Assembly: GCA_015056795.1 (NCBI GenBank)
Contig: SVFO01000005.1
Location: forward strand, 62,001-126,000
Length of the DNA stretch: 64,000 nucleotides
Direction of reading: 5' to 3'
Source: Lachnospiraceae bacterium
GTDB lineage: Bacteria > Bacillota > Clostridia > Lachnospirales > Lachnospiraceae
A program made the translations under genes and the position numbers. This document shows positions 18,575-62,020 of this stretch, in pieces. The stretch's first letter is position 1. Each line of letters opens with the position of its first letter. The notes below the pieces were generated by a model that saw only the letters and a list, made by a program, of their open reading frames with translations, was not told where the DNA came from and made no database searches.

Positions 18575-19090
18575 ATGAATACTATGAATGCTGAATTTTA
18601 TGTAAAAGAATATGGAAAGAGCTTGTATTCCTTCTGCCTCTACTGCACGCGTGACAAGGAGGCCGCAGATGACCTGTATCAGCAGACCTTTTTGGTAGCG
18701 CTCGAAAAGGATGAGATCAAACGGGAGGCAAATCCGAAGTCTTATCTGATTACCATTGCCATGAATCTTTGGAGAAACCAGATGAGAAAGGCGGCCTGGC
18801 GAAAAAAGATCGCAGATGTTTCCTATCTTGGAGAGGAAGAACTGGCGCAGATTGCTGACAGGGGATGCTCCGTGGAGGAGGAAGTGCAGAAAAGGCAGGA
18901 GGAGGTGCTAGTTCGACAGAACGTGCTAAAGCTGCCAGAGAAGCTCAGGGTCGTGATCTTACTGTATTACATGGAGGACATGTCCGTTGAAGAGATCGCC
19001 TTGGCACTCAAAATTCCTGCGGGAACGGTAAAAAGCAGGATGAACAAAGCCAAAAATGTGTTAAAGGAGAGATTGCAATATGGAAAATAG
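18575..19090 (+). CDS. ECF-type RNA polymerase sigma factor
   Basis: A 171-residue sigma-70 protein with only regions 2 and 4. Region 2 includes DKEAADDLYQQTFLVAL; region 4 includes LPEKLRVVILLYYMEDMSVEEIA followed by the helix-turn-helix IPAGTVKSRMNKAK. It overlaps the next gene, a putative anti-sigma factor, by 11 bases. A TGACGTCA palindrome lies 15 bases before the start. Confidence 0.92.
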   Translation: MNTMNAEFYVKEYGKSLYSFCLYCTRDKEAADDLYQQTFLVALEKDEIKREANPKSYLITIAMNLWRNQMRKAAWRKKIADVSYLGEEELAQIADRGCSVEEEVQKRQEEVLVRQNVLKLPEKLRVVILLYYMEDMSVEEIALALKIPAGTVKSRMNKAKNVLKERLQYGK

Positions 19091-19970
19091 AGAGTTGGAT
19101 GCAATGTTAAAACAGTCCTTACAGCCTGCCATCCAGGCAGAGGAAAGCCTTGACAGGGCAATTTTAGAAAGGTTGGCAGACCCATCCGATGCAGGAGGCG
19201 ACGGGATCGGAAACGATCAGGCAGGAAACGGCATGACGGGAAAAGGCATAAAGGGGAGAGCCTTCCAAAGGAATCTTCCCAAGGCAGCAGCCATTGTCCT
19301 CGCCATTTTGGTGATTGGCACGGGAACAGTCTATGCGGCAGGATATATTTATAACAAAATCATTGTAACCGATCATGGGGTGTCCATCGGAAATGAAGAG
19401 TATATTATTGATGAAGAGTTGGCAAAGCCTGTGGAATATGCCCCCGTGGAGGAAGTGGCCACACAGGAGCCAGGAGAGGGCGATCAGTGGCTTTCGATGA
19501 AGAAAGAAAAGGTCTCAGGTCAGTTTTTCAATACCTATTATACCTATCCCGATTATCAAACAGCAATTGGCGACACGAGGTTTGAAAGCCTCTTCACTGA
19601 ACTGCCAGGGAAGGAGCAGGGGGTGTTTGATAGCGTGATTTATAGCATAACGGAAGAAGATGGTGATGTCATTAGTTATAGTTTGGATGCTTGTTTTGAT
19701 TTAGAAGACAAAATTTTCTGTACACATCAGATGATGGCAGACGAAGGCTTTACAGAGGATGATGCATTTGGTGTTAGCATGCAACAAACAGGCAATGTAC
19801 GTACCTATCTCTCTGGTTCTGGAACAGAATTTACCTTAGTGGATGACCTGGAAAGGGAGCAGTATACCATCGTCCTGATTTTTCGGGAAAAGGATCTTGG
19901 GTATTTGAGCTTCCAAGGATTTTCGGAGGAGGAGATCCATCATATATTGGACCTGGTGAAGCTTCCGTAA
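19080..19970 (+). CDS. Putative membrane anti-sigma factor
   Basis: A 296-residue protein with a cytoplasmic N-terminus of about 75 residues, one membrane helix (about 78-100) and a 195-residue extracytoplasmic domain I do not recognise. The topology and translational coupling to the ECF sigma gene (11-base overlap) fit an anti-sigma factor that senses an external signal. There is no zinc-finger motif in the N-terminus, so this is not a ZAS-type anti-sigma. Confidence 0.75.
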   Translation: MENRELDAMLKQSLQPAIQAEESLDRAILERLADPSDAGGDGIGNDQAGNGMTGKGIKGRAFQRNLPKAAAIVLAILVIGTGTVYAAGYIYNKIIVTDHGVSIGNEEYIIDEELAKPVEYAPVEEVATQEPGEGDQWLSMKKEKVSGQFFNTYYTYPDYQTAIGDTRFESLFTELPGKEQGVFDSVIYSITEEDGDVISYSLDACFDLEDKIFCTHQMMADEGFTEDDAFGVSMQQTGNVRTYLSGSGTEFTLVDDLEREQYTIVLIFREKDLGYLSFQGFSEEEIHHILDLVKLP

Positions 19971-20038
19971 GTTTAGTCTAAGCAGAGTTGCAGGGCGCAT
20001 GATTATTGTCATGTGCCCCTTTTCTATATTCAAATTCG

Positions 20039-20383
20039 TTAGTTTTGCTTGTATTTATCCATTGCAAGAATAATGCGAAAAATTTGTTCTTGTTCTGATT
20101 TTGTTTTAGATGACAACAGTTCATAGCATTCTAAAGGGATATTTCTTTCGTTTTTAATCAGCGAATTGTTATTTATTTTTTCAAACAACTTTTCAAGAGG
20201 CAAATCTAAACCGAGGCAAATTTTTTCCAAACTTTCAAGTGTTGCATTTTTCTCACCGCGCTCAACTTGACCAATATAGGTTGGATGACAGCCAGATAGC
20301 TCAGCGAGTTTTTCTTGACTCAGCCCTTTTTGAGTACGGTAATTCCTGATACGCTGTCCGATAGCTTTTACTAAATCACTCAT
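20039..20383 (-). CDS. XRE-family repressor of the 20-29 kb island
   Basis: A 114-residue protein with an N-terminal Cro/CI helix-turn-helix (LSQEKLAELSGCHPTYIGQVERGEKNATL) and a short C-terminal helical tail. It is transcribed away from the island genes. A perfect inverted repeat overlaps the divergent promoter, so it is probably a repressor of the island and of itself. AAAAGGA lies 8 bases before the second ATG, which is used here. Confidence 0.85.
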   Translation of the reverse strand: MSDLVKAIGQRIRNYRTQKGLSQEKLAELSGCHPTYIGQVERGEKNATLESLEKICLGLDLPLEKLFEKINNNSLIKNERNIPLECYELLSSKTKSEQEQIFRIILAMDKYKQN

Positions 20384-20441
20384 ACCAATCATCCTTTTTT
20401 TATATAGTCTATAAATATAATATTTCCTTTTCTACAGACTA

Positions 20442-20470
20442 TTGATATTGCTTTGGGATCGTGATATACT
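20442..20470 (+). promoter_or_regulatory. Promoter of the HerA/metallopeptidase island
   Basis: TTGATA, 17-base spacer, TATACT, with extended -10 TGA. The -10 overlaps the left arm of the operator at 20466. Confidence 0.75.
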
Positions 20471-20508
20471 ATAAATATTATTTATGAAGGAAATAGTATT
20501 TATAGTAT
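20466..20508. promoter_or_regulatory. Operator: perfect 12-bp inverted repeat
   Basis: ATACTATAAATA at 20466-20477 and its exact complement at 20497-20508, 19 bases apart. A third related site, ATAGTCTATAAATATA, occurs near 20404, just before the divergent repressor gene. The placement over the -10 and start site fits repression by the adjacent XRE protein. Confidence 0.7.
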
Positions 20509-20619
20509 CTTTTTAATGCTATTTTAGACAAATATGTGATAAGACTTACGCATGTTCAACAATCAATTTACTGACGAGCCTAGGGTTTACTGTAAAAAAT
20601 AGTATGGGAGGCAAAAAGA

Positions 20620-21210
20620 ATGGCTTACAAGATGGAAAGATTAACTTGTCCAGGATGCGGATTCCCTGTAGAAATCGGTATGAAAGAATGTCCAGCGGGA
20701 CATCCATTAAATATATCAACTTTTACAAGTGTATATGATATGCCGTTGCCGCTTGTTAATAAATATACGAATACCTATCAAAAGGATTTAGTAAATGACC
20801 CTTCAAACAAAGAATTAAATCACTCTATTGGTATTTGTTATTTAAAACTAAAGTTATATGACAAAGCAATTTCTGCATTTGAAAGAGCGATGGAGGACAA
20901 TTTTGATAACTCTGAAACCTTTTTTTATGCAGCAATCGCATTATTAAGGGGAAAAAAAGCTTTTCTTGCGCTTCGATCAAGCATTGACAAAGCGGAAGAA
21001 TATATAAATGCGGCATTAATGATTGAACCGAAAGGCATTTATTATTATTTCCTTGCCTACATAAAATATGATTTCTTTGAGAGAAAATTCCTAAATACAT
21101 CACCAAACTATAAAGAAGCGCTTCATATGGCTAATGATGCAGGCCTATCAGAGTATGACATACAAATGTTATATGGGATGTTAAATGTTGAACGTCCAAG
21201 TATTCTGTAA
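20620..21210 (+). CDS. Zinc-ribbon and TPR-like protein
   Basis: A 196-residue soluble protein. A short zinc-ribbon-like motif at residues 9-28 (CPGC...CPAGH) is followed by tetratricopeptide-like helices, for example NHSIGICYLKLKLYDKAISAFERAM. TPR domains mediate protein contacts. It is the first gene of the island operon, about 140 bases downstream of the promoter. Exact role unknown. Confidence 0.65.
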   Translation: MAYKMERLTCPGCGFPVEIGMKECPAGHPLNISTFTSVYDMPLPLVNKYTNTYQKDLVNDPSNKELNHSIGICYLKLKLYDKAISAFERAMEDNFDNSETFFYAAIALLRGKKAFLALRSSIDKAEEYINAALMIEPKGIYYYFLAYIKYDFFERKFLNTSPNYKEALHMANDAGLSEYDIQMLYGMLNVERPSIL

Positions 21211-21267
21211 TTATTGCCATGGCCACACATGGTGATGATATATAACATAAGACAAAGGAGGACGCTT

Positions 21268-21969
21268 ATGGATTACGAACTAACAAAACGATACTTTAAG
21301 GTGGTTGATGAATATATTAACTATAAATCATGTGCCATCATGATCGGGGTTGGAGCTTTATTGTTCTTAAGTATTGCGAAAGTTCCTGCCATGGGAATTT
21401 TCGGTTTAATTATTGCAGGAATTGGTGTCTTTAGGATTGTTTCCAAGAAGAATAAAATCAGTAGTGAGAAGGCGAGTATCCCTTCTGATGAAGAATACGA
21501 CAATGAGGTTGTCAAGAATTTGAATAATCTAAAATCCAAGGCTTTGAATGCGCTTGGACTTGACGCGGATGAAGTAAAAGAGATTGAACCGATTTCTTTT
21601 GATGGATATGTATATAAAAATGCATCCAATGCCAAAAAGGGTAAAGATGATTTATGGCGTACTAATAAATATGAATATGTCATCCTTTTCTTTTCGGAGC
21701 ACGAGGTTCATTGTTATACATACAATTTTGATACAACGGCAGATAAAAAGACTGAAGCGACAGATGTATATTTTTATAAAGACATTGTGTCTGTTTCTAC
21801 GGCTAGTGATTCCACGAAACTACTTGGGCAAAACATTGATTACGAATACTTTAAGCTCACAACGGCGGGAGGAACCGCACTTTCGGTTTCCCTTCGTGAT
21901 ACTAGTAATGCCCAAAGATCTATTAATGCAATGCGTACATTGCTTAAGGCAAAAAAACAACAGGGTTAA
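21268..21969 (+). CDS. Membrane protein of unknown function
   Basis: A 233-residue protein with two membrane helices close together (about residues 24-60) and a soluble C-terminal domain of about 170 residues. That domain, with alternating beta-strand-like stretches (YEYVILFFSEHEVHCYTYNF), is not recognised. AAAGGAGG lies 6 bases before the ATG. A terminator-like hairpin follows, so expression of the next genes may be reduced relative to this one. Confidence 0.6.
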   Translation: MDYELTKRYFKVVDEYINYKSCAIMIGVGALLFLSIAKVPAMGIFGLIIAGIGVFRIVSKKNKISSEKASIPSDEEYDNEVVKNLNNLKSKALNALGLDADEVKEIEPISFDGYVYKNASNAKKGKDDLWRTNKYEYVILFFSEHEVHCYTYNFDTTADKKTEATDVYFYKDIVSVSTASDSTKLLGQNIDYEYFKLTTAGGTALSVSLRDTSNAQRSINAMRTLLKAKKQQG

Positions 21970-21974
21970 AAACG

Positions 21975-22027
21975 CCTGTGTAATCTAATGCTTTGTGGCG
22001 GGTTATTAGGTTGCACAGGTTTTTTTT
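21975..22027 (+). terminator. Hairpin plus T-run inside the island (partial terminator)
   Basis: CCTGTG/CACAGG with inner CTAAT/ATTAG pairing, followed by eight T. It lies 39 bases before the ATPase gene; with no strong promoter after it, it probably tunes rather than ends transcription. Confidence 0.65.
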
Positions 22028-22065
22028 ATTATTAGGTATAAAATTTTGTAATCAGGAGAATTAAA

Positions 22066-24747
22066 ATGCCAACAAGTATAAGTTTAGAGAAGCTCATAAA
22101 TGGAGAAATGATTGCACTGGGATGCCTTGAAATCACGGCCATTCCGCATGCTTCAATTATCGAAGACAGGCAAAATTCTTTATCTGACATTGTTGAAGTT
22201 TATAAATCTGAGACCGTTGCCTTACTCAATGAAGTTTATCAGTCGTACAAATCGCTTAGTTCTTTGAGCGGATACTCAAAGGATACATCTTTTGAGTTAT
22301 TATGGACAACGCATGAAGTAAAAAACCAGCCATTCAAGGCAGAAATTAAGCTACATATTATCGTTCGTGTAATTGACGCATCTGATAGCCTTGCGAAGGA
22401 AGCTGTACTAAACATATTGCGTTTGTTTAAATCAACATTGTCAATTCAAAAGTATGATTTTAGAGAAATTAACTATGAAGAACTATCTAAACAAATAGCG
22501 TCTGTTGAGGATACATCAGTTAAGGCGATAATGAAAGAAGAAAAAGTTGAGAGTCTTCAAAACCAACTGTTACCATACTGCTATGCATATGATCGCATTC
22601 CAATTTCAAGTAACGATCTTAGCAGAATAGTTAATGTTTTAATTGATTATCCAAATTGTGCTATTTCTTTTCAGCTGATTCCGACGGTCATTGGGAATGA
22701 AGAAGCAGTAGAAATTGATCGAGTTTCTCAAATATTGGAAACGCTGAGTAAAGGAGTAATGAATCAAGGAATAGGTAATATTAGTTTTACGCTTGCGGAA
22801 AATCATGCAAAAACATATAGATATTACTCTGAACATAAAACCTCTTCACTTTTTATATATAACATCCTTGTTTATGGTAATGAAACTGCCACTTCTAATA
22901 TTTCTGGTCGAGTGTTTGGACAACTCAGTACAGGTAAAGATAGTACGGCTAGTCTAAAACTTGTTGATTTAGACGCTGGAGAGATAAATAAGGATACTAA
23001 TTTTTATCCTCTTCCATGGGCAGTCAATGAGATACTTATAAACAAGGGTCGAAACTATCAAATATGGAGTTCTGGGCAATTTTCACAAGCCTATTATCGT
23101 TTGCCGTTAATTCTTACGGCAGAGGAAGCGGCAGAGTTTTTTAGGCTTCCCATTGGTAACGACAGGATAACTGCGGGACTTCCGATTAATGAATCTGGTA
23201 AGGGTACTAAAACATATACGTCAAATATTATTAATGCAGGTGACATTGAAGTTGGCAAGCTGCGTTCATCAACGAATGGAGATACGATAGGTTTTTCGCT
23301 CAAGGATTTAGCAAAGCATATGCTAATTGTTGGAACACCAGGCTCTGGTAAAACAACTTTCTCCGTGAGTTTATTAGATCGGCTTTGGAAAGAGCATCAT
23401 ATACCTTTTTTAGTTATTGAACCTGCGAAAAATGAATATCGGGCATTAGTACAAAGTATTCCTGAGTTACAAGTGTTTACGCCAGGTAAAAATTTTATAT
23501 CGCCATTTGTTTTTAATCCTTTTGTGCCTCCCAAAAACGTAAAACTGGAAACATATAAATCAACCTTAAAGACGGCCTTTTCCGCCGCTGTATCAATGTC
23601 TACTCCTCTTGATAAAATATTTGAGGAAACAATAAACAATTGCTACTCTGATTTTAGATGGCTTGATACATATACCATTGATGACAAGGGACAGATTTTT
23701 AATATTTCTGATTTTATAAAATGCTTTCAAAATACATTTGAAGAGATTGGATATACTGGTGACGCAAAGAATATAGGCCGTGCTGGCGTGGTTCGGTTGA
23801 ATAGCTTGAGTAATTTGTTTGACAATTATTTTTCCATTCCCATACAAGATCTGCTTGAAAAGCCGACAATCATTGAACTTGCGGCAATTGAGAATAGTGA
23901 TCAGAAGGCTTTAATTATTTCGTTACTTCTACTTTCTATTCTTGCATATGTGAATTCTAATTATGTAGGGGAAGGTGGACTTAAGAATGTGATTCTTCTG
24001 GAAGAAGCTCACGTGCTTTTGGATGCAGAATCCAATGCGAGTCAGGGAGACGCAAATCCTAGTGCCATAGCGCAAGGTTTGGTAAAGAGAATGCTTGCTG
24101 AAATACGTTCGTATGGCGTGGGAATCGTTATTGCGGATCAGTCTCCTCGTAAAGTATCAACTGACGTGGTTGCGCTCACTGACATGAAGATGGTATTTCG
24201 CCTTGTTGAAACAATGGACAAACAGATTGTTGCAGACAGCATGAATATGAGCGAGGCTCAGACGCAAAGAATGTCTCGGTTAAAACCTGGTGAAGCATAT
24301 CTTTTTTTCAACAGGCTTGATGAACCAGAAGAAGTGATAACGCCAGATTATCGCTTAGAGAACAACATTAGTATTACTCTTTCCGATGATGGAATACGAG
24401 AGTTGAGTACTTATTGGAATGATAAACAGGAGCATTTAAGACCTTATCCAGAATGCGCAAAAACGAAGTATTGCTCACATTCATGTGATTATGCAAGAAG
24501 AATTCTTGCACGAGAAATTGCCAGGAGAATTTTTGTCAAAAACTTCAAAGCTGGGATGTCAGACTTTGAAGCAGTAAAGAAGGTCTTTGGGCAGATAACT
24601 AACTTAGTGAAGGCAGAGCTTAATGACGAACCATTTTCTAAAGAATTGCTTTCATGTGTGAAGGTCCATTTGTGGAGAAGAATACGTTATGGCACAAAGA
24701 TTCCTGTAAGAGACATTCACATAGTAAATTCTCTCGAAAAACCTTAG
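22066..24747 (+). CDS. HerA/DUF87-like hexameric ATPase
   Basis: An 893-residue protein. An N-terminal region of about 400 residues is unrecognised. The P-loop domain carries Walker A GTPGSGKT at residues 423-430, FLVIEPAKNEYR, a Walker B ending in Glu646-Glu647 (NVILLEEAHVLLD), and the sensor-like IVIADQSPRKV. This combination is typical of HerA/VirB4-like translocases that move DNA or protein. The C-terminus has a Cys cluster (C-x6-C-x3-C near TKYCSHSC). HerA-like ATPases occur in phage defence and in secretion systems; neither can be assigned from sequence. AGGAGA precedes the ATG. Confidence 0.82.
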   Translation: MPTSISLEKLINGEMIALGCLEITAIPHASIIEDRQNSLSDIVEVYKSETVALLNEVYQSYKSLSSLSGYSKDTSFELLWTTHEVKNQPFKAEIKLHIIVRVIDASDSLAKEAVLNILRLFKSTLSIQKYDFREINYEELSKQIASVEDTSVKAIMKEEKVESLQNQLLPYCYAYDRIPISSNDLSRIVNVLIDYPNCAISFQLIPTVIGNEEAVEIDRVSQILETLSKGVMNQGIGNISFTLAENHAKTYRYYSEHKTSSLFIYNILVYGNETATSNISGRVFGQLSTGKDSTASLKLVDLDAGEINKDTNFYPLPWAVNEILINKGRNYQIWSSGQFSQAYYRLPLILTAEEAAEFFRLPIGNDRITAGLPINESGKGTKTYTSNIINAGDIEVGKLRSSTNGDTIGFSLKDLAKHMLIVGTPGSGKTTFSVSLLDRLWKEHHIPFLVIEPAKNEYRALVQSIPELQVFTPGKNFISPFVFNPFVPPKNVKLETYKSTLKTAFSAAVSMSTPLDKIFEETINNCYSDFRWLDTYTIDDKGQIFNISDFIKCFQNTFEEIGYTGDAKNIGRAGVVRLNSLSNLFDNYFSIPIQDLLEKPTIIELAAIENSDQKALIISLLLLSILAYVNSNYVGEGGLKNVILLEEAHVLLDAESNASQGDANPSAIAQGLVKRMLAEIRSYGVGIVIADQSPRKVSTDVVALTDMKMVFRLVETMDKQIVADSMNMSEAQTQRMSRLKPGEAYLFFNRLDEPEEVITPDYRLENNISITLSDDGIRELSTYWNDKQEHLRPYPECAKTKYCSHSCDYARRILAREIARRIFVKNFKAGMSDFEAVKKVFGQITNLVKAELNDEPFSKELLSCVKVHLWRRIRYGTKIPVRDIHIVNSLEKP

Positions 24748-24766
24748 AAGGGAGGAATAGTACCAA

Positions 24767-27211
24767 ATGGATGAAGAATATAGCGATAGTATAGATACTT
24801 CAACAGATATGGATATCTCTGATGTAGATGTGTCTGACGATATTCCTGCAGAAATACCAGAAGATCTGCCAGAAGATGATTATTCTGGCACAGATATTGC
24901 CGACGAGGTTTCCGAGGATGTGTCGGAAGATCCAGTAGTTGACGATAGTGAATATGATGGAACCGATGAATCTATTGAAGAGGACTGCATAGCGCCTGAG
25001 AACGGTGAACTAGATGAAGCTATGGATGAAATTGAAGAGGATTCTCTTGAAGAATCAGAAGACCTCGCTGAAGATTACGAGGAACAGGATGATATTACCG
25101 AAGATACGGATGATTTTGTTGAAGTGCAGAACAGCGAGATGGATGATGCTGAGGAAATTTTGGAGGACACGGATAATTATGAGGTGACCGATCAGGAGGA
25201 AACCTTTACTGAAAATATCTCGGAGGATGTGTCCGATGCCGAAACGGTAGATGACACCACTGATGCCGAAGATACTGATGCCACAGAGCAATCGGAAGAT
25301 ATAACCAATACTGAGGAAACGGAAGATGTCGATGATACTGAGGATGTCGCGGAGCAGCTAGAGGACATGCCAGATGCTGAAGCTACGGATGAAAAAGTTG
25401 ATGCAGAGAGTACTGATACCACGGAGCAGCAGGAGAATAAGCCTGATACCGAGGTAGTGGATGCGGCTGCAGATGTTGAGGATATCGAAACTTCCGAACA
25501 GTTGGATGATGTATCCGATACCGAGACGGCGGATGAGGTTTCAGGTGTTGAGGATAATGAAATTTCAGAACAGCTGGATGATGTGCCCGAAATTGAGACG
25601 GCGGATGAGGTTTCGGATGTAGAGGATACCGAAATCTCCGAACGGCTGGATGATGTGCTTGATACCGAGGCAGCGGATGAAGCTTCAGATGTTGAGGATA
25701 CAGAAGATGGGGAGCAATTGAAAGCCATAGATGATACTGAGTCTTTGGATGATATGACAGATAACGATGCTGCTGCTTTGACGGAACAAGATGTCGGTGA
25801 AAGCGATACAGAAACCTATGATTATGAAACATCACCAGAAGTGAAGGATTCCGTTAATCCTGAAATCTCGGGAGAACTTGTTTCTGCGGAAAACCCATAT
25901 CGGGAAAGATGGGAGCAGTTCGGAGAAGAATTTTCAGACGATGGCGAGGAATCAGAAGGTTGGGATTCGCTAAAAGAGGTTCCGTTTAGTGGAGATGAAA
26001 CATTGGACGGGGATATTCGGACAAACGACATGGAGCAACCAGATCGTGGATCGTGGTCATCAGATGATTCTCCCAAAGTATTAAAGCGTAATGAATACGA
26101 TTTACTCAAGTCGGGTAATGATGCTATTAATCAACGATTAGAGGTTCAGGCAGATGATTATAGAGACCGTGGAATGAGCGAGACAGAAATTGAAGATCGT
26201 CTGGCGGCAGACAAATGGAAATTCCAGAAAGAATTTCTTGATGATGCTTTCCCTGGGGAAGATGTCTCGCCTAATGTATTCAATGGATTTAGCGAACATG
26301 GCTCGAAGGATCGTATTGAGGAAATGGAACGATCTGAATTGCTAAGAGAGATAGTAACTAAATCAAAAGACAAAAATGCAGACATGGATTCCGATGTTAT
26401 GGAAACGCAAGATAGAAATCATCCATTATCAGAGGAAGTTATTGATGAATTTTCTACGAATGAGGCTCCAGCCGTCAACAGTGAATTCAATGCTGAAAAT
26501 GATGTTCCAATTATTCCAAGGCCATCTGATTTGGACAGAAGAATAATTGACATTTTTCCAGAAGGACGCCGTAAGGCTATAGATGAAGCATTTGCTGACG
26601 CACCGCAAGAGCTTGTGGAAACATTAAACGATTACTCCGATGGATTAAAGCATATTAAGGATAGTGGATATGAACTTAATGAGAATGGTCAGATGGTAAA
26701 ACTCGGATGTTATTATGAGGATGGCAGTGATACAATTACCATGGATGAGCACATGACAGATGCGGAGTATGCAGAGGTATTTCCTCATGAATTTGGACAT
26801 TATGTGGATTGTCAAAAGGGTTGGGAATCTACGGATGCAGACTTTACGCAGGCCATTCAGGAAGATATTGGCGCATTTGACAAATTAACACCAGAGGGGA
26901 AAGCGCATTTTAATGACATGTTGGATGATGCTTTTTCAACTGGAGCCGCATATGACAGATCTGTAACCGACATACTTTCAGCAATGTTTGGAAATGATTC
27001 GGATATTATTCAAAGGTTTAATGATGAGAATGTAGCATACTATCAGCACACGAATGATTACTGGAGCATTCCTGGTATGATGCAAAAGGAAATATATGCG
27101 AATAATATGGCAATACAAGTTAGCCAGACAAGGGTTAGCAAGAACTTTATTGAACGCTGGTTTGGAAGCACCACTTCTTGTTTTAAGGAGAAATTTGGTT
27201 TAAATAATTGA
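24767..27211 (+). CDS. Highly acidic protein with C-terminal zincin metallopeptidase domain
   Basis: An 814-residue protein. Residues 1 to about 365 are almost entirely Asp, Glu, Thr, Ser, Val and Ala and contain three tandem 24-residue repeats (EQLDDV...TADEVSDVED) at 25496-25711. A middle linker leads to a C-terminal domain with HEFGHYVD at residues 674-681 (HExxH zinc motif), followed by a helical segment and a late MAIQVSQ region. There is no signal peptide. The layout of repetitive N-terminus and terminal enzyme domain, followed 14 bases later by a small ORF, resembles toxin-immunity gene pairs, but the link is inference. Its gene starts 19 bases after the ATPase stop. Confidence 0.75.
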   Translation: MDEEYSDSIDTSTDMDISDVDVSDDIPAEIPEDLPEDDYSGTDIADEVSEDVSEDPVVDDSEYDGTDESIEEDCIAPENGELDEAMDEIEEDSLEESEDLAEDYEEQDDITEDTDDFVEVQNSEMDDAEEILEDTDNYEVTDQEETFTENISEDVSDAETVDDTTDAEDTDATEQSEDITNTEETEDVDDTEDVAEQLEDMPDAEATDEKVDAESTDTTEQQENKPDTEVVDAAADVEDIETSEQLDDVSDTETADEVSGVEDNEISEQLDDVPEIETADEVSDVEDTEISERLDDVLDTEAADEASDVEDTEDGEQLKAIDDTESLDDMTDNDAAALTEQDVGESDTETYDYETSPEVKDSVNPEISGELVSAENPYRERWEQFGEEFSDDGEESEGWDSLKEVPFSGDETLDGDIRTNDMEQPDRGSWSSDDSPKVLKRNEYDLLKSGNDAINQRLEVQADDYRDRGMSETEIEDRLAADKWKFQKEFLDDAFPGEDVSPNVFNGFSEHGSKDRIEEMERSELLREIVTKSKDKNADMDSDVMETQDRNHPLSEEVIDEFSTNEAPAVNSEFNAENDVPIIPRPSDLDRRIIDIFPEGRRKAIDEAFADAPQELVETLNDYSDGLKHIKDSGYELNENGQMVKLGCYYEDGSDTITMDEHMTDAEYAEVFPHEFGHYVDCQKGWESTDADFTQAIQEDIGAFDKLTPEGKAHFNDMLDDAFSTGAAYDRSVTDILSAMFGNDSDIIQRFNDENVAYYQHTNDYWSIPGMMQKEIYANNMAIQVSQTRVSKNFIERWFGSTTSCFKEKFGLNN
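25496..25711 (+). repeat. Three tandem 72-bp coding repeats
   Basis: Each unit encodes 24 residues beginning EQLDDV or ERLDDV. Units differ by several substitutions at the DNA level. They lie within the acidic region of the metallopeptidase gene. Confidence 0.8.
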
Positions 27212-27225
27212 GCGGAGGTGTAAAA

Positions 27226-27432
27226 ATGAATAGTATCGAATTTGGGAGAAAGTGTCAGCCTTTCAACAAAGAATACAAGGAACTGTTTGGCAAAGTTCCT
27301 TGCCCTGATGATTATGCGTGTAACCGCGATGAATTCTTTGATGCATTGAAAAAGGCGATTGAAACTAAAACAGAGATTGAAAAGCTCGTTTCTGTTCGAG
27401 CAATTAATAGTGATCCAACTAAAATATTTTAG
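27226..27432 (+). CDS. Small unknown protein (possible immunity or accessory factor)
   Basis: A 68-residue protein with a perfect ribosome site (GGAGGTG) 6 bases before the ATG. No family recognised; mainly helical, with three Cys in the first half. It sits between the acidic metallopeptidase and the SPFH gene. Position suggests a partner of the metallopeptidase. Confidence 0.6.
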   Translation: MNSIEFGRKCQPFNKEYKELFGKVPCPDDYACNRDEFFDALKKAIETKTEIEKLVSVRAINSDPTKIF

Positions 27433-27450
27433 TTGAGGGAGGAAATTGAC

Positions 27451-28605
27451 ATGGCACTATTTGGTAAAAACCCTAACGAAGTAGCCTATACAGGCGGTAA
27501 GAAACATTGGGCAGATGTTATCAAAAACTCTGCTCCTGGAGAACTGCTAATTTGGCGTCAACCAGAGGAAGATTTTAACACCAATTCTACACTAATTGTA
27601 ATGCCTGGTGAAGAAGCCATATTTATTAAGGGGGGTGCAATAGAGCAGACATTTGAAAATGGAACATATAAACTCTCCACGGAGAATTATCCTTTTATTA
27701 GTCGTCTGAGAAATGCTTTTACTGGAGGAATTAGCACATTTAATTGTGTTGTTTACTTTGTAAGAAAGGCAGATAGTCAGGAAATTATTTGGGGAACAGA
27801 TAGCCCAATTCAAGTAAGGGACAAGGTATGGGGCGTCCGCACGGATGCACGAGTACGTGGGGCATATAAAGTCCGTATTGATAATCCAGCCAAGTTTTTG
27901 GAAAAACTTATTGGTAATAATGTTCCTTTACAATTTCAAGAAGACCTAAACAAGTATTTTCGTAATGAATTTCAAGGGAAAATTAAAGCTTCCATTTCTA
28001 GATTTCTGAATAGCTTGGATCAGGAATTGATTGGTATTGATGCCTATTTGGATGAGTTGTCAGAAAAAGTTGAGCCATTTATTAACGAAGCCCTTGAGGA
28101 TTATGGCTTAAAGTGCATAAAGTTTTCCTTATCGGGTCTGGATGTAGATACAACAAAATACGATATGCTTGATACATCTCAAATGGAATTAATTGCTCGT
28201 CAAAGAGGTTATCAGGGAGACAAAGCAGGACTAGATATTCTTGGAGCTGATTGGACCAGGGTTCAAGGTGTAAATGTGTTGAAAGACATAGCCAATAATC
28301 CTGGTGCAGGTGGTGTTGCCGCTGCTGGAGCAGGTATGGGAATGGGTATTGGTGCGGCTGGTGTTTTTGGCTCCATTGCACAACAGGTGTTTGCACCAGT
28401 AAATAATGGATTTCCTACGCAACCCCCGATACAACAGCAACCTTCAGGAAGGTTTACTCAACAACAATCGACATCTGGATCAAAGCAGAGTACACAAGAG
28501 GATCCATTAGAGGTTCTTGCAAAACTAAAGAAAATGCTTGATGCAGGACTTATTGAGCAGGCGGAATATGATGCCAAAAAAGCTGATGTCCTGAGTAGAA
28601 TGTGA
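27451..28605 (+). CDS. SPFH-domain protein with C-terminal SHOCT motif (YdjI-like)
   Basis: A 384-residue protein. The N-terminal 250 residues are an SPFH domain of the YdjI (virion-core-like) type, including the opening MALFGKNPNEVAYTGG and IWRQPEED. A Gly/Ala-rich hydrophobic stretch (about 283-310), a Gln-rich linker and a final SHOCT motif (DPLEVLAKLKKMLDAGLIEQAEYDAKKAD) follow. SPFH proteins form membrane-associated oligomers. GAGGGAGG lies just before the start at 27451, preferred to a longer in-frame start. Confidence 0.85.
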   Translation: MALFGKNPNEVAYTGGKKHWADVIKNSAPGELLIWRQPEEDFNTNSTLIVMPGEEAIFIKGGAIEQTFENGTYKLSTENYPFISRLRNAFTGGISTFNCVVYFVRKADSQEIIWGTDSPIQVRDKVWGVRTDARVRGAYKVRIDNPAKFLEKLIGNNVPLQFQEDLNKYFRNEFQGKIKASISRFLNSLDQELIGIDAYLDELSEKVEPFINEALEDYGLKCIKFSLSGLDVDTTKYDMLDTSQMELIARQRGYQGDKAGLDILGADWTRVQGVNVLKDIANNPGAGGVAAAGAGMGMGIGAAGVFGSIAQQVFAPVNNGFPTQPPIQQQPSGRFTQQQSTSGSKQSTQEDPLEVLAKLKKMLDAGLIEQAEYDAKKADVLSRM

Positions 28606-28619
28606 GGTGGCATGAGAAA

Positions 28620-29300
28620 ATGAAAAGAAAATCCGTATTATGGGTGGCATTGGATTTAGTCTTTTTGATTGTGTTCAATACGATATTTTTTGTAGTAGGA
28701 GGCACGGCACATTCTGCATCTGTGTGGCTCTCATATGTTTTTATTCATTTTGCGTATTTTATGGTGCTAATCACTCCATTTCTTATTCGCAAAGGGAGTA
28801 GTGCAGTTGTTTGGGGATTTTCGATTTATAGCATATCCTCGATTTATTTTATTATTGAATTTTCTGTCGGAATAGTGTTTATTCTGCTCAAACAAGATTC
28901 CTACAAACCGGCTTTGGTAGTGCAAATTGTTATTGCTGGAATTTACGCGATTCTTCTATTATCTCACTTAATCGCGAATGAATCCTCCGCAAATAATGTG
29001 AAACGTCATGAACAGGAAGTCATTTATATTAAAGAAGTGGCATCACGAGTGAAATTAATGATGGGTAAGCTATCTGACAAAAAAACGAACAAAGAAATAG
29101 AAAAGCTCTATGATCTTCTTCGTTCAAGCCCATCAAAATCAAGCGGTGCTGTCTACTCACTTGAAAGATCCATTGTTGACATGATTACAGAATTAGAAAC
29201 AAGTATTGCATCAAATGACCTTGAAATTACAAAAAAAATAATTTCAAAAACAATTGCTGCGGTGGAAGAAAGAAACCGAAAACTGAGGCAATTAAATTAA
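28620..29300 (+). CDS. Membrane protein with C-terminal coiled coil
   Basis: A 226-residue protein with four hydrophobic helices in the first 120 residues and a charged helical C-terminal half. No family recognised with confidence; the tail faintly resembles XpaC-type proteins. GAGGTGG precedes the ATG. It is the last gene of the island operon, followed by a terminator. Confidence 0.6.
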   Translation: MKRKSVLWVALDLVFLIVFNTIFFVVGGTAHSASVWLSYVFIHFAYFMVLITPFLIRKGSSAVVWGFSIYSISSIYFIIEFSVGIVFILLKQDSYKPALVVQIVIAGIYAILLLSHLIANESSANNVKRHEQEVIYIKEVASRVKLMMGKLSDKKTNKEIEKLYDLLRSSPSKSSGAVYSLERSIVDMITELETSIASNDLEITKKIISKTIAAVEERNRKLRQLN

Positions 29301-29308
29301 CTAATGGG

Positions 29309-29342
29309 AAGACCGTTTGCCTATCTGGCAGGCGGTCTTTTG
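29309..29342 (+). terminator. Terminator of the island operon
   Basis: AAGACCG..TGCC pairs with GGCA..CGGTCTT (two G-T pairs between), TATCT loop, then four T. Confidence 0.75.
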
Positions 29343-29352
29343 GTATTGACGA

Positions 29353-29548
29353 TCATGCCGTCAGTCTGTGGCGAAAGTCCACAAGCAGGATCATCGCATA
29401 GTCCCTCTTGCTAATAGGGCAGTTGTGGTCAATCGCATTGATCATCGTAGCAATTGAAGCCGTTTCTGAGAAAGCGTTCCGTCATTGTATTTCGTCTGGG
29501 AGTTATATCCGTTTCAAGGTACGCAAGACCACGCTTCATATCAAACAT
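29353..29548 (-). pseudogene. Decayed tyrosine recombinase fragment
   Basis: On the minus strand two frames together read like the central part of a tyrosine recombinase: ETDITPRRNTMTERFLRNGF in one frame, then after a frameshift MINAIDHNCPISKRDYAMIL in the other, a match to the familiar I-x-x-ID...KRDYAIILL stretch that precedes the first catalytic Arg. Both frames end in stops. The fragment is too short to be functional. It sits at the distal end of the AT-rich island. Confidence 0.5.
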
Positions 29549-29780
29549 ATCTTAAGGCCAATGTGACAATCAAGCAGGGAAAATAGAGAAAGAGAAAAGT
29601 TTCAAAGATTATATTAAATTTGACATGATTTATGATTTGGAATATAAGGGATCAAATTCTGCTTAAAAAAGCAACAAAATAGTGCAAATGCAATATATTA
29701 AAAGAATATTCTTGATATCTAAAATGGGAGAAGCTGAAAAATACATTAAAATAGATCAAGAATTAGATTAAATTTACCAC
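29549..29780. other. AT-rich spacer between recombinase fragment and leuA promoter
   Basis: No ORF, RNA gene or clear repeat seen. In particular no T-box signature was found, despite the leucine gene downstream. Confidence 0.4.
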
Positions 29781-29809
29781 TTGTTTATGCATGATATTAG
29801 TGCTATGAT
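29781..29809 (+). promoter_or_regulatory. Promoter of leuA
   Basis: TTGTTT, 17-base spacer, TATGAT with extended -10 TGC. The leader is about 85 bases long. Confidence 0.65.
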
Positions 29810-29901
29810 GTAGAAACGATAAGAACAACAAAAACGGCAACGCACTCTCCTGAAAATGTGAAGAGGAAGGACTTGCGGATTGCCAAATGGAGGAAGTCAT
29901 C

Positions 29902-31902
29902 ATGACCGAGAAAGAAATCAAGCAAAAATATCAGAAGAGCTATCATTTACCCCCGAAGATGACCTATGACTGGGTAAAGAAGGAGTGTATTACGAAGGCG
30001 CCCATCTGGTGCAGCGTGGATCTGCGCGATGGTAACCAGGCGCTGATCGATCCTATGGACCTTGAGAGCAAGCTGGAATTTTTCAAGATTTTGGTGGACG
30101 TTGGCTTTAAGGAGATTGAGGTAGGATTTCCCGCATCCTCCGATACGGAATATAATTTCATCCGCGCATTGATCGAGCGCGACATGATTCCCGACGACGT
30201 AACGATCCAGGTACTGACGCAGGCGAGAGAGCACATCATTAAAAAGACCTTCGAGGCAGTCAAGGGCGCGCCCCATGCGGTGGTCCACCTTTACAATTCC
30301 ACTTCCGTGGAGCAGCGGGAGCAGGTATTTAAGAAGAGCAAGGAAGAGATCACGAAGATTGCGGTGGACGGCGCAAAGCTCCTTAAGAAGCTGGCGGATG
30401 AGACCGACGGAAATTTCACCTTCGAGTATAGTCCCGAGAGCTTCTCCCAGACCGAGGTGGATTTTGCGCTGGACGTATGTAATGCCGTGCTGGACGTATG
30501 GAAGCCGACCAAGGAGCGCAAGGCGATCATCAACCTTCCCTCCACGGTTCAGGTGGCAATGCCGCACGTATTTGCCTGCCAGATTGAATACATGCATAAG
30601 AACTTAAAGTATCGCGACGGCGTTGTCCTTTCCGTACATCCTCATAATGACCGCGGCACGGGTATTTCCGATGCGGAGTTCGGCGTGCTTGCCGGTGCGG
30701 ACCGCGTAGAGGGAACCCTGTTTGGAAACGGAGAGAGAACCGGTAACGTGGACGTGGTGACGCTTGCCATGAACATGATGACCCACGGCGTGGACAGTAA
30801 ACTGGACTTCTCCCATATCATGGACATACGTGCAAAGTATGAGAAGTTCACGGGCATGAAGGTTCACGAGAGAACCCCCTATGCCGGAGACCTTGTATTT
30901 ACGGCTTTTTCCGGCTCCCATCAGGATGCCATCAGTAAGGGCATGCAGTGGAGACAGGACGGAAAGAGCGGCAAGCGCTGGGACGTTCCTTATCTGCCCA
31001 TCGACCCGACCGACCTTGGCCGTGAGTATGAGTCCGACGTCATCCGCATCAATTCCGTATCTGGTAAGGGCGGCGTGGCATTTGTGTTAAAGCAGCAGTT
31101 TGGTTTCTCCCTGCCGCTTGCCATGCGCGAGGAGGTTGGTTACCTCATCAAGGGCGTGTCTGACAGAAGGCATCAGGAGCTTCCTCCGAAGGAGATTTAT
31201 CGGATCTTTGAGGAGACCTACATTCAGCCTAGGAATGTCTTTAACATTCCGGAGTGCCACTTTAAGCAGGAGAATGGCATTCAGGCAGAGGTTACCGTAG
31301 ATCAAAACGGCGCGCGCCGCGTGATTAGTACCAGCGGTAATGGCCGTCTCGATGCCGTGAGCAATGCGATCAAGACCTACTTTGGCATTACCTACGAGCT
31401 TTCCGTTTATGAAGAGCACGCCATTTCCAAGGGATCTTCCTCCAAGGCAGCCGCTTACGTTGGCATCCTTTCCGAGGGCAAGTTCTATTGGGGCGTTGGC
31501 GTGGATGAGGATATCATTAAGGCTTCCATCGCGGCACTGGTTTCCGCGACGAACAAGCTGACCGCAGAGCAGCACGTGACACAGGGACGCGACGAGAGAA
31601 CCGTCGAGATCATCAGCTATGTGCAAAAGCACTATGCGGACGTAACGCTTGAGAGCCTTTCTGAGTATTGTCATCTGTCTGGCCCTTATCTCTCCAAGTT
31701 CATCAAGGAGAAGACGGGTAAGACCTTCCAGGATGTTGTCCGCGAGCAGCGCATGAAGAAGGCCCGCCTGCTCTTAAAGGAGTCCGACCAGACGGTGGAG
31801 AGTGTTTCCGAGGCCGTTGGCTATGAGAATGTGGAGCATTTCAATCGTCTCTTCAAGAAAGCATATGGCGTGACGCCGCTGCAATTTAAAAAGCAGAGAT
31901 AA
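29902..31902 (+). CDS. leuA: 2-isopropylmalate synthase fused to an AraC-type DNA-binding domain
   Basis: A 666-residue protein. The first 560 residues are a complete long-form LeuA: catalytic barrel with DLRDGNQALIDPM and the metal-binding HPHNDRG, then the regulatory domain (SGNGRLDAVSNAIKTYFG and YEEHA). LeuA condenses acetyl-CoA with 2-oxoisovalerate, the first step of leucine synthesis. Residues about 563-666 form a two-helix-turn-helix AraC domain (LESLSEYCHLSGPYLSKFIKEKTG and VESVSEAVGYENVEHFNRLFKKAYGVTPLQF). The fusion is in one uninterrupted frame and the linker is short. GGAGG lies 8 bases before 29902. The fusion suggests an enzyme that also binds DNA; that is inference. Confidence 0.9.
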   Translation: MTEKEIKQKYQKSYHLPPKMTYDWVKKECITKAPIWCSVDLRDGNQALIDPMDLESKLEFFKILVDVGFKEIEVGFPASSDTEYNFIRALIERDMIPDDVTIQVLTQAREHIIKKTFEAVKGAPHAVVHLYNSTSVEQREQVFKKSKEEITKIAVDGAKLLKKLADETDGNFTFEYSPESFSQTEVDFALDVCNAVLDVWKPTKERKAIINLPSTVQVAMPHVFACQIEYMHKNLKYRDGVVLSVHPHNDRGTGISDAEFGVLAGADRVEGTLFGNGERTGNVDVVTLAMNMMTHGVDSKLDFSHIMDIRAKYEKFTGMKVHERTPYAGDLVFTAFSGSHQDAISKGMQWRQDGKSGKRWDVPYLPIDPTDLGREYESDVIRINSVSGKGGVAFVLKQQFGFSLPLAMREEVGYLIKGVSDRRHQELPPKEIYRIFEETYIQPRNVFNIPECHFKQENGIQAEVTVDQNGARRVISTSGNGRLDAVSNAIKTYFGITYELSVYEEHAISKGSSSKAAAYVGILSEGKFYWGVGVDEDIIKASIAALVSATNKLTAEQHVTQGRDERTVEIISYVQKHYADVTLESLSEYCHLSGPYLSKFIKEKTGKTFQDVVREQRMKKARLLLKESDQTVESVSEAVGYENVEHFNRLFKKAYGVTPLQFKKQR

Positions 31903-37837: not shown

Positions 37838-38587
37838 ATGAAAGAAACAAAGTATGATAAAGAATTGATGGAAAAGGATCCATTGTTTGCGATCCATAAG
37901 TTTTCTTTGCCACACATAGGCGAAGAGTATGAGAAATTTCGTATTTTACATGTGGGTGAAAGTAACTACTTAGGGCAGGATGCTGAAACAGAATCTGATC
38001 AGTTTGGGATTCCTTTTTTTGCGGAAAAATGGTGGAATACGGAATATACCATGGAAGAACTGATGAGAGTATACCCGGAGACATGCTGGGATGGTGATTG
38101 GACTAGAAACGTGATTAAGGAATTTGGAACCGGGCTCTCAGATTTCTTCGATATTTACAAGGCCATGGGAACGGCCTTGTTGAAATTGAAATTTCCGGAA
38201 GTGGAACCGTCTGAAAAAAATATTCGGGAGTATTATTATAAATATTTTGCTTTTACGGATTATTATAAAATGCCTTCCCTCTATAAGGGAAAAGCTTTTA
38301 ACATAAGCTTAAACGTAGGAAGAAAAAAGTTGTCTGAGGAAGAAAACAAAAAATATCCCTCAAGAGAATTCAATAGGAATAATAAGGCGCAGGCACAATT
38401 GGCATTGGATACGGTAATCGAGGTGCTTGATCCTAAAGTGGTTTTGGTGACGTCTTCTCTGGCAATGCATGCTTACCAAGGAAAATACAAGGACAGGTTT
38501 CTTCATGTCCATCATCCGAGCAGTCGTAGATTCGGGTATTTTAAGCAAGAGGATCTAGAAAATGAACTAAAAAAAGCATTGCAGTAA
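37838..38587 (+). CDS. Unknown protein, possible uracil-DNA-glycosylase-like fold
   Basis: A 249-residue soluble protein. ILHVGESNYLG near residue 35 and VHHPSSRRFGY near the C-terminus sit where UDG-superfamily proteins carry their first active-site loop and His-containing last loop. This resemblance is weak. GGAGGA lies 9 bases before the ATG. The next gene has a similar first-loop motif, suggesting a functional or evolutionary pair. AT content rises from here to 39.5 kb, hinting at acquisition. Confidence 0.45.
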   Translation: MKETKYDKELMEKDPLFAIHKFSLPHIGEEYEKFRILHVGESNYLGQDAETESDQFGIPFFAEKWWNTEYTMEELMRVYPETCWDGDWTRNVIKEFGTGLSDFFDIYKAMGTALLKLKFPEVEPSEKNIREYYYKYFAFTDYYKMPSLYKGKAFNISLNVGRKKLSEEENKKYPSREFNRNNKAQAQLALDTVIEVLDPKVVLVTSSLAMHAYQGKYKDRFLHVHHPSSRRFGYFKQEDLENELKKALQ

Positions 38588-38704
38588 AACGAAAAAATTA
38601 TTGAAACATACTAAGAAAAGTGTATTAGCGAAGTTTACATTTATAAAAGGAAAAGTTTATGTCATTTGTTTGCGAAACAGATTAATAAAGGAGAGTATGG
38701 ATAA

Positions 38705-39478
38705 ATGAATAAATATCAGGAATTAACTATCAATGGATTAAAAGAAGGATTAAAAAAACAATGGGATTTTATGAATTCACTTTCTACTGGTTTTTTTATT
38801 TCAGATGATGATACGAATCCGGAAGATTGTGTTTTAACTATCGGTCTTAATCCGGCAGGAGACAGTATAAATGCTGATGACGAAAGAAATCAACGGTTAT
38901 ACTTATTTTCAGTTGACGATGATTTAGCAATCGATAGTTATGCTGAAGAAAAACAAGGGCGCATTGTAAATAATGGCTATTATCGCAAAATTATGAAAAT
39001 TGTTGATCATACTGTTGGAAAAGGACGGTGGCCATGGAGCAAGGAATCATGGGCAGTATTGGAAAAGCAAATAGATTCAGACGCATTGCTAAACCATAAT
39101 AAATTGAATATTAAAAAACAATATGACCGGGATCAGAAGAGAAAAATTACGGTTTATCACGGAGATATGTTTTATGTGCATAAAACTGATTCGACAGAAA
39201 TTGAAATGAAGAAAAATTGGGATGGAGTTGAGTATTGTAAAAAAATGTTAAGTTATCATATGGATGACTTAAAGGCACATAATAAAAGTATTAAGTATGT
39301 TTACATTCCAAATAAGAAAATTTCGAACTGGCTTGCAGTAGGAAAAGAATATGTCATGTTAGACGATGGTACTTATGTATTTTTAAGTGAACAGCCAACT
39401 GCTAGCTGGTGGAATAGACATCAAAGGGACGTAAAAGACCCCGAGACTATCAATAGAATCTTAAATCATGTGTTGTAA
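38705..39478 (+). CDS. Unknown protein, possible uracil-DNA-glycosylase-like fold
   Basis: A 257-residue soluble protein. VLTIGLNPAGDS at residues about 40-52 resembles the UDG-superfamily loop G-x-N-P-G. Elsewhere it is Lys/Asp/Asn-rich with no recognised motif. AAAGGAGAG lies before the start. It is markedly more AT-rich than its neighbours downstream. Confidence 0.45.
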   Translation: MNKYQELTINGLKEGLKKQWDFMNSLSTGFFISDDDTNPEDCVLTIGLNPAGDSINADDERNQRLYLFSVDDDLAIDSYAEEKQGRIVNNGYYRKIMKIVDHTVGKGRWPWSKESWAVLEKQIDSDALLNHNKLNIKKQYDRDQKRKITVYHGDMFYVHKTDSTEIEMKKNWDGVEYCKKMLSYHMDDLKAHNKSIKYVYIPNKKISNWLAVGKEYVMLDDGTYVFLSEQPTASWWNRHQRDVKDPETINRILNHVL

Positions 39479-61989: not shown

Positions 61990-62020
61990 ATAGACGTGCG
62001 CCCTTGTCAAAACAAGGGAA
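61990..62020. other. Candidate oriT
   Basis: GTGCGCCCTTG at 61996-62006 resembles the nick region of MobQ (RSF1010-like) origins (GTGCGCCCT), and is followed at once by the hairpin CCCTTGT-CAAA-ACAAGGG. It lies between the relaxase operon and the divergent regulator, where oriT is expected. Inverted repeats also occur at 61888-61905. The remaining part of 61839-62216 holds no ORF. Confidence 0.55.

Follow-up and report, generated by a model that had tools for sequence, protein, structure and literature searches.

Which function joins a HerA-type ATPase, a hyperacidic protein with a zinc-peptidase motif, and an SPFH-SHOCT protein in one operon? The question is raised by a locus in a Lachnospiraceae bacterium (assembly GCA_015056795.1, contig SVFO01000005.1) and was addressed in a window of 64,000 nucleotides, the whole stretch of DNA analyzed (contig positions 62,001 to 126,000, forward strand), together with related loci in other genomes (designated L003, L004, and so on). 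The original prediction had described eight genes, all of which are present as open reading frames (ORFs) at or near the predicted positions, and had proposed that they form one system with the acidic protein as an effector. Both proposals are supported by comparison with the related loci, which makes it moderately probable that the acidic protein belongs to the polymorphic toxins and that the operon is a horizontally acquired system for trafficking it. This reading is drawn because the core of the operon is constant, the tails of the acidic protein are swapped, small genes change with the tails, and several toxin domains fall into known classes; its toxin-immunity part is strongly suggested by the comparison. 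The genes and domains that carry the argument are as follows (TM, transmembrane; aa, amino acids).

22066..24747, + strand: HerA/FtsK-superfamily ATPase (Pfam DUF87 1.3e-11, over the cut-off)
23332-23358 and 23989-24012, + strand: Walker A and Walker B of HerA (alignment of 15 sequences)
24767..25906, + strand: hyperacidic leader, residues 1-380 of the acidic protein (charge count and repeat)
26075..26356, + strand: pre-toxin module, residues 437-530 (shared with other effectors)
26534..27208, + strand: C-terminal zincin, variable toxin-type domain (weak DUF6782 0.0013, below the cut-off)
26786-26800, within 27053-27067, and 27086-27103, + strand: zincin motifs HEFGH, YWS, and KEIYAN, respectively
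27226..27432, + strand: small protein of 68 aa, candidate immunity protein for the zincin (position; partner covariation elsewhere)
27451..28605, + strand: SPFH (Band_7_1 8.5e-33) and SHOCT (1.2e-6) protein, both over the cut-off
28602..29300, + strand: four-TM membrane protein, MEM8 (TM prediction)

The comparison covered 14 HerA loci at 56-74% identity on genome contigs, one locus from viral contigs, and later loci, two of which repeat L003 and L009. A core of HerA, one or more acidic proteins, the SPFH-SHOCT protein, and a membrane protein recurs in other Clostridia and is thus not limited to its own genome. HerA matches in 91 of 91 locus pairs (14 loci, L027 included; median identity, 58.6%), SPFH in 78 of 78 (13 loci; 58.2%), and MEM8 in 55 of 55 (11 loci; 37.7%), whereas only 9 of 136 pairs match over the final 180 residues of 17 effectors, and the partner genes (n = 11) match in 6 of 55, all among pairs with matching effectors; the locus pairs in these counts are not independent. 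Effectors match without a partner match in L003/L012 and L016/L027, and L009 has no partner. The C-terminal domain of the acidic protein is thus exchanged for other toxin-type domains while the remainder is kept constant and, by this comparison, the metallopeptidase of the window is one of several interchangeable tails. The tails of L023 and L009 belong to known toxin classes over the Pfam cut-offs (the ADP-ribosyltransferase exoenzyme ADPrib_exo_Tox 5.9e-24 and, in a second effector, the colicin-type nuclease WHH 5.5e-12 for L023; WHH 3.3e-7 for L009), and in L023 a DUF6985 gene (1e-13) follows the WHH toxin. The HerA tree, which has long branches and some weak forks, shows no grouping by toxin type.

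The order HerA, effector(s), SPFH is found in the 12 loci with HerA at least 56% identical in which all three genes are readable, and the spacer between HerA and the effector is at most 21 bases in the ten loci measured. In all loci of this identity whose DNA reaches far enough (13 of 13), HerA is followed downstream by SPFH; this count includes L013, where the effector is unreadable, and leaves out L002, L004, L006, L007, L008, L010, L016, and L034, where the DNA ends too early. The four-TM protein, for which no convincing Pfam family was found, follows SPFH in 11 of 12 loci, the exception being L009, and in the distant L027 (HerA 33% identical) both genes are found upstream of HerA. This arrangement bears on a reading in which two unrelated modules adjoin, the HerA, SPFH, and TPR proteins serving in membrane stress or DNA handling while toxin cassettes insert at a recombination hotspot. 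Such a reading would accommodate the 19 plasmid records that match the SPFH protein without a HerA match from the HerA plasmid search, as well as L007 and L012, in which an additional gene separates HerA from the acidic gene. It is nevertheless improbable, given the order and spacing of the genes, the recurrence of the acidic leader and its start motif, and the distant HerA genes that have other neighbors and again precede toxins (5 of 15 plasmid loci, described below).

No Pfam family spans the full length of the acidic protein. As predicted, it is hyperacidic and contains an HExxH motif; residues 1 to 380 carry a net charge of −158, with no lysine or arginine before residue 210, and this leader contains a 72-bp tandem repeat (25441-25705). 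The effectors share no alignable N-terminal domain. An acidic-then-aromatic start motif occurs in 14 of 16 effectors versus 11% at other leader positions, for a pattern chosen post hoc, with two starts trimmed by eye and the seventeenth effector (L005) excluded for its masked leader. The pre-toxin module is 56% identical in L007 and 68% identical in L035, even though HerA of L035 is only about 31% identical. A different repeated module is present in L003, L005, L015, and L023 and, by eye, in L024.

One other genome contains a relative of the zincin (28% identity, 8.6e-6; 2 of 146 genomes match, its own included). This relative (L050) is the C terminus of a MuF phage protein (PF04233 3.1e-13) and has the same motifs, as has a weak second relative (5e-4), encoded behind the portal gene in phage phiCD418. 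The MuF nature of the phiCD418 protein rests on its place after the portal gene, because no Pfam domain in it reached 0.01. Phage records gave this one zincin relative, plasmids and viral contigs gave none, and there was no meaningful PDB sequence match. The small gene behind the zincin has no convincing Pfam family; the small ORFs behind both phage zincins show, by eye, a similar spacing of Y, G, and P. From its position and the covariation of partners elsewhere, the small gene is likely an immunity gene.

MuF toxins are a polymorphic family in which, according to passages of Jamet et al. (2017, PMC5576092), 20% of 191 proteins carry metallopeptidase domains and 89.4% have a small ORF behind them. 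MuF toxins have a constant N-terminal part, an exchangeable C-terminal toxin, and a small ORF behind, an architecture resembling the one here, and the MuF protein of L050 carries a relative of the window zincin and perhaps of its small partner too. In contrast to MuF toxins, the carrier in the window is an acidic leader tied to HerA and SPFH genes and not a phage head protein. Pfam identified no Mu_F domain in the acidic protein, and the eight genes of the island include no phage structural genes.

Short acidic zincins, with scores mostly below the cut-off, directly follow HerA in four further loci, and each is accompanied by a related partner about 100 aa long.

L016, 12654-13707: short zincin and partner
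L024, 10421-11709: short zincin and partner
L026, 10495-11527: short zincin and partner
L027, 10210-11249: short zincin and partner

Because they stand directly after HerA and, in L016, L024, and L026, precede a second acidic gene, these short zincins may be processing or system peptidases instead of cargo toxins.

More distant HerA proteins were found on plasmids, where 42 records match and 15 nonredundant loci were examined. A Pfam-confirmed toxin gene directly follows HerA in five of the 15, and four of these five continue with a SUKH or DUF6985 gene (families assigned by Pfam).

Exiguobacterium plasmid: HerA, WHH toxin, then SUKH
S. clavuligerus plasmid: HerA, then ART (2.1e-24)
Lactococcus plasmid: HerA, WHH (1e-15), then DUF6985 (1.5e-5)
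Treponema plasmid: HerA, WHH, then SUKH
E. coli plasmid: HerA, LHH, then SUKH

SUKH is an immunity family, and DUF6985 would by its position be an immunity gene as well; the WHH-DUF6985 pair is common to L023 and the Lactococcus plasmid. Upstream of HerA in the Treponema, E. coli, and Lactococcus loci, paired dynamins are annotated (one E. coli copy, Dynamin_N 2.4e-14), so that these loci (L059, L064, L047) combine paired dynamins, HerA, a nuclease toxin, and a SUKH or DUF6985 gene. We know of no name for such dynamin-HerA-HNH-immunity loci. They resemble the window operon in joining membrane-remodeling proteins, HerA, a toxin, and a SUKH or DUF6985 gene and differ from it in having paired dynamins in place of SPFH, HerA proteins about 26-28% identical, and short toxins with a leader that is not strongly acidic. 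The E. coli HerA was found in 1 of 5426 E. coli genomes (near-identity mode), on the same plasmid. In Kocuria an SPFH gene lies directly before HerA (Band_7 3e-5), and the Rhodococcus plasmid locus adjoins mobilization genes. Phage records contain two HerA matches, at 26-28% identity.

In a subgroup of the distant loci, the genes behind HerA encode, in place of toxins, small proteins that belong to no Pfam family (L048 7536-8177, L061 6593-7511, L051 6421-7020, and L052 10438-11145); those of L048, L052, and L061 have Gly/Ser-rich hydrophobic N termini.

The Pfam identities of the predicted XRE, HerA, SPFH, and SHOCT proteins or domains all exceed their cut-offs. In HerA, the Walker A and B regions are conserved across the 15 aligned sequences, and a C-terminal C-x5-C-x3-C motif (24454-24486) is invariant in all 15, the window included; a PDB sequence search matched only the C-terminal half. 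Among named NCBIfam models, the DNA translocase CedD scores highest (3.4e-27; 95.3 bits against a cut-off of 600). This match, the polyanionic leader, and the mobilization genes beside the Rhodococcus locus would suit a DNA-transfer machine of the Ced or conjugation kind, in which HerA pumps DNA, the acidic protein shields or escorts it as a DNA mimic, and the enzymatic tails act in the recipient. The resemblance to the archaeal CedABD DNA import system consists in CedD being the closest NCBIfam model to the ATPase; the score, however, is far under the cut-off, and the window system is bacterial and toxin linked. Conjugation and Ced were rejected on gene content, as no relaxase, type IV secretion system, Ced membrane subunit, or other supporting gene was recognized among the island genes, and a DNA-transfer machine is a highly improbable reading.

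For toxins, passages of PMC3482391 name type VII and type IV secretion as FtsK/HerA routes. Type VII secretion with LXG/WXG toxins resembles the window operon in linking polymorphic toxins of Bacillota to an ATPase of the FtsK/HerA superfamily, as the same passages indicate; it differs in that the window ATPase has a single DUF87 domain and neither LXG nor WXG matches the acidic protein. Type VII secretion was also rejected on the genome itself (98.94% complete), which gave zero matches to WXG100 (the control matched B. subtilis and T. maritima) and zero to EssB/YukC (the control matched B. subtilis). By its constant linkage and by analogy with the roles of HerA/FtsK proteins elsewhere, HerA likely moves the toxin.

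The horizontal origin of the operon is indicated by an empty site in G1083, a relative of the same genus.

19952..29734, no strand assigned: inserted island (blastn empty site in relative G1083, and GC content)

G1083 holds 189 unrelated bases where the window holds 19952-29734. On the left, window positions 18739-19951 correspond to positions 1-1228 of L056, the G1083 locus, at 98% identity, and on the right the window from 29735 corresponds to L056 from 1418 at 92% identity (blastn). The insertion is thus 9.8 kb long, and the AT-rich island originally placed at 20039..29300 is real and somewhat wider than predicted. Its GC content is 0.382, against 0.482 for the remaining window. Attachment-site repeats were not apparent (no common 10-mers between 19900-20060 and 29250-29800), and no integrase was seen among the island ORFs of the window copy, while L005, L008, and L023 each carry a tyrosine integrase gene upstream of the one for the zinc-ribbon protein. 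HerA is sparse, occurring in 7 of 397 family genomes, 4 of 392 order genomes, 2 of 391 class genomes, and, at a looser cut-off, 3 of 398 phylum genomes (own genome counted in each; the samples may overlap). None of the ten other genomes of the genus among the family and order samples has a match. Several of the Clostridia loci are labeled as gut or rumen samples. On this sequence evidence, the operon is horizontally acquired and one of a family of mobile islands.

Upstream of HerA, the island contains two further genes of the operon, a divergent regulator, and two putative control elements.

20620..21210, + strand: zinc-ribbon (by eye) and TPR protein (TPR_1 2.2e-6, just below the cut-off)
21268..21969, + strand: membrane-anchored third protein with a conserved soluble domain (one TM segment; start reassigned)
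20039..20392, − strand: XRE/HTH_3 regulator (Pfam HTH_3 7.5e-15)
20442..20508, + strand: promoter-like site overlapped by an operator-like inverted repeat (sequence scan; similar element in L004)
21968..22027, + strand: terminator- or attenuator-like hairpin with T8, before HerA (folding versus shuffles)

Of the predicted zinc-ribbon/TPR assignment, the TPR part falls just under the cut-off (27.7 versus 27.8 bits), and the zinc ribbon consists of cysteines judged by eye, UPF0547 reaching just 0.037. Homologs of this protein occur upstream of HerA in 14 loci, the window counted, and PADLOC models match it weakly. The third gene, PH-like in appearance as judged by eye, has no convincing Pfam family. 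A YidD-type membrane protein (PF01809, over the cut-off) is present in ten other loci (L003 and nine more), between the third gene and HerA in nine and farther upstream in L012. In eight of the ten, the third gene lacks a clear TM segment; L023, whose third gene has one, and L012, which has no third gene, are the exceptions. In the window, L004, L008, and L025, the TM segment sits in the third gene, and no YidD was seen there. The predicted starts needed revision in three genes, better starts backed by a ribosome-binding site lying at 21268 (third gene), 27226 (small gene), and 27451 (SPFH), and the spacers after this reassignment are 57, 96, 19, 14, 18, and −4 bases.

The XRE protein, whose gene is 68% identical in L004, is by sequence a probable repressor of the operon. 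The predicted perfect 12-bp inverted repeat is real and lies inside arms of 18 nucleotides (20466-20483/20491-20508; 94% complementary), which overlap the −10 element of the best sigma-70-like site, TTGATA-17-TATACT at 20442-20470. Sigma-70-like sites are not enriched in the region (25 versus 32.6 in shuffles). L004 contains a similar repeat (12 nucleotides, 92%) and, by eye, the same two hexamers. A promoter-like site is therefore present as predicted, whereas its being the only one is doubtful in view of the hairpin between the third gene and HerA (−25.3 kcal/mol; z, −5.75; 0 of 200 shuffles). Hairpins that differ in sequence occupy the equivalent spot in L004 (9908-9964) and L008 (within 6084-6286). 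Because the T8 hairpin precedes HerA, it is a possible attenuator, and attenuation, not the first promoter alone, may govern HerA and the genes that follow.

Several observations weigh against the acidic protein being an exported toxin with an immunity partner. The ART gene of L023 is followed by only a 61-aa ORF as a possible partner; in L009, L011, and L014, as well as behind the final effector of both L024 and L026, no same-strand ORF of at least 50 aa stands before SPFH. The window small gene has no detectable homolog in 119 other family genomes, and its likeness to the phage small ORFs is a visual one. The window zincin scores under every family cut-off. The tails of L003, L011, L012, L014, L015, and L025, the second effector of L024, and others gave no convincing Pfam match, six of these also being without a meaningful NCBIfam match, so that several tails are toxin-like by context only. 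“C39-like” is a by-eye label for the tails of L003, L005, L012, and L025; Pfam was blank for L003, L012, and L025, the ones scanned. The short toxins of Exiguobacterium and Lactococcus lack a strongly acidic leader, and the acidity is weaker in L026. Ten of the 15 distant plasmid loci have no Pfam toxin in the genes scanned, namely Priestia and Rhodococcus (C-terminal parts of both), Nocardia, and seven more. By eye only, Rhodococcus and Nocardia appear toxin-like, the Rhodococcus gene scanned, the second behind HerA, being REase-like and that of Nocardia lipase-like, with Pfam blank for both; nothing toxin-like was seen in the Photobacterium, Acinetobacter, and Anabaena loci. HerA has no convincing TM segment, so its docking at the membrane is assumed. 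Finally, in PADLOC the ATPase scores best against mad8 (4.7e-18), a protein of a defense system.

Because of this last match, intracellular defense keeps a minor share of probability. In that case HerA, SPFH, and the zinc-ribbon/TPR protein would sense phage or plasmid DNA and release or activate the effector in the same cell (abortive infection), with the small gene as an antitoxin. Known defense systems pair HerA ATPases with nucleases or Sir2, PADLOC HerA models also match the ATPase (from 6.3e-15), the XRE protein matches PADLOC control-protein models (2.5e-16; generic for such regulators), the operon lies within a mobile island with a repressor, and no signal peptide or known export signal was seen. 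The HerA-Sir2 and HerA nuclease anti-phage systems and MADS thus share with the window a HerA-type ATPase and an enzymatic partner, but here the partner is an exchangeable protein of the toxin type whose small gene covaries with it, SPFH and TPR proteins are present as well, and no Sir2, NurA, or DUF4297-type partner is found among the eight genes. Variable tails with covarying small genes, SUKH included, typify exported polymorphic toxins, and a phage MuF protein shares the zincin; both fit defense less well than they fit an exported toxin.

If the operon does traffic a polymorphic toxin, the acidic protein would be modular, with a polyanionic, probably disordered leader bearing the conserved start, a pre-toxin module, and an exchangeable enzymatic C terminus, in the window a putative zinc peptidase. 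The small gene behind it would encode the immunity protein. The HerA-type ATPase would act as the motor, engaging the leader and driving the toxin to and through a membrane site, and SPFH, the four-TM protein, and the membrane-anchored third protein would build this exit site. The toxin would then act in neighboring, probably related cells that lack the immunity gene. An XRE repressor on the operator-like repeat, together with the attenuator-like hairpin, would keep the operon off by default. In its boldest form, this proposal describes a new class of toxin export, in which the HerA ring threads a protein by a polyanionic leader free of lysine and arginine that stands in for DNA, membrane-remodeling partners are interchangeable (SPFH in Clostridia and Kocuria, paired dynamins in E. 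coli, Treponema, and Lactococcus), and the payload is any of many toxins; we put it forward tentatively and consider it doubtful as a whole.

The original prediction had named no known system with this gene set, and none emerged among the literature matches listed (titles and abstract starts), although an earlier description elsewhere is possible. In passages of PMC7159879, mentions of HerA and SPFH are confined to the reference list.

Outside the island, the window contains a second AT-rich stretch at 38001-39000 (GC, 0.349) and, at 29887-31902, a 2-isopropylmalate synthase (HMGL-like, IPMS_D2, LeuA_dimer) with a C-terminal AraC-type helix-turn-helix domain (HTH_18 5.2e-20). The fusion does not look like an assembly artifact, because G1083 has a 671-aa ORF of the same length at the matching place.

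Polymorphic toxins are sorted by their trafficking route, and the operon described here ties the hallmarks of toxin and immunity genes to a HerA-type motor and membrane scaffolds, a linkage seen in Clostridia and, in a looser form, on plasmids from four phyla. Should the motor export toxins, Gram-positive bacteria would possess a new route of secretion in which a DNA pump has been turned to moving proteins. SPFH and dynamin-like proteins would then gain a role in bacterial competition, with a defined operon in which to study it.

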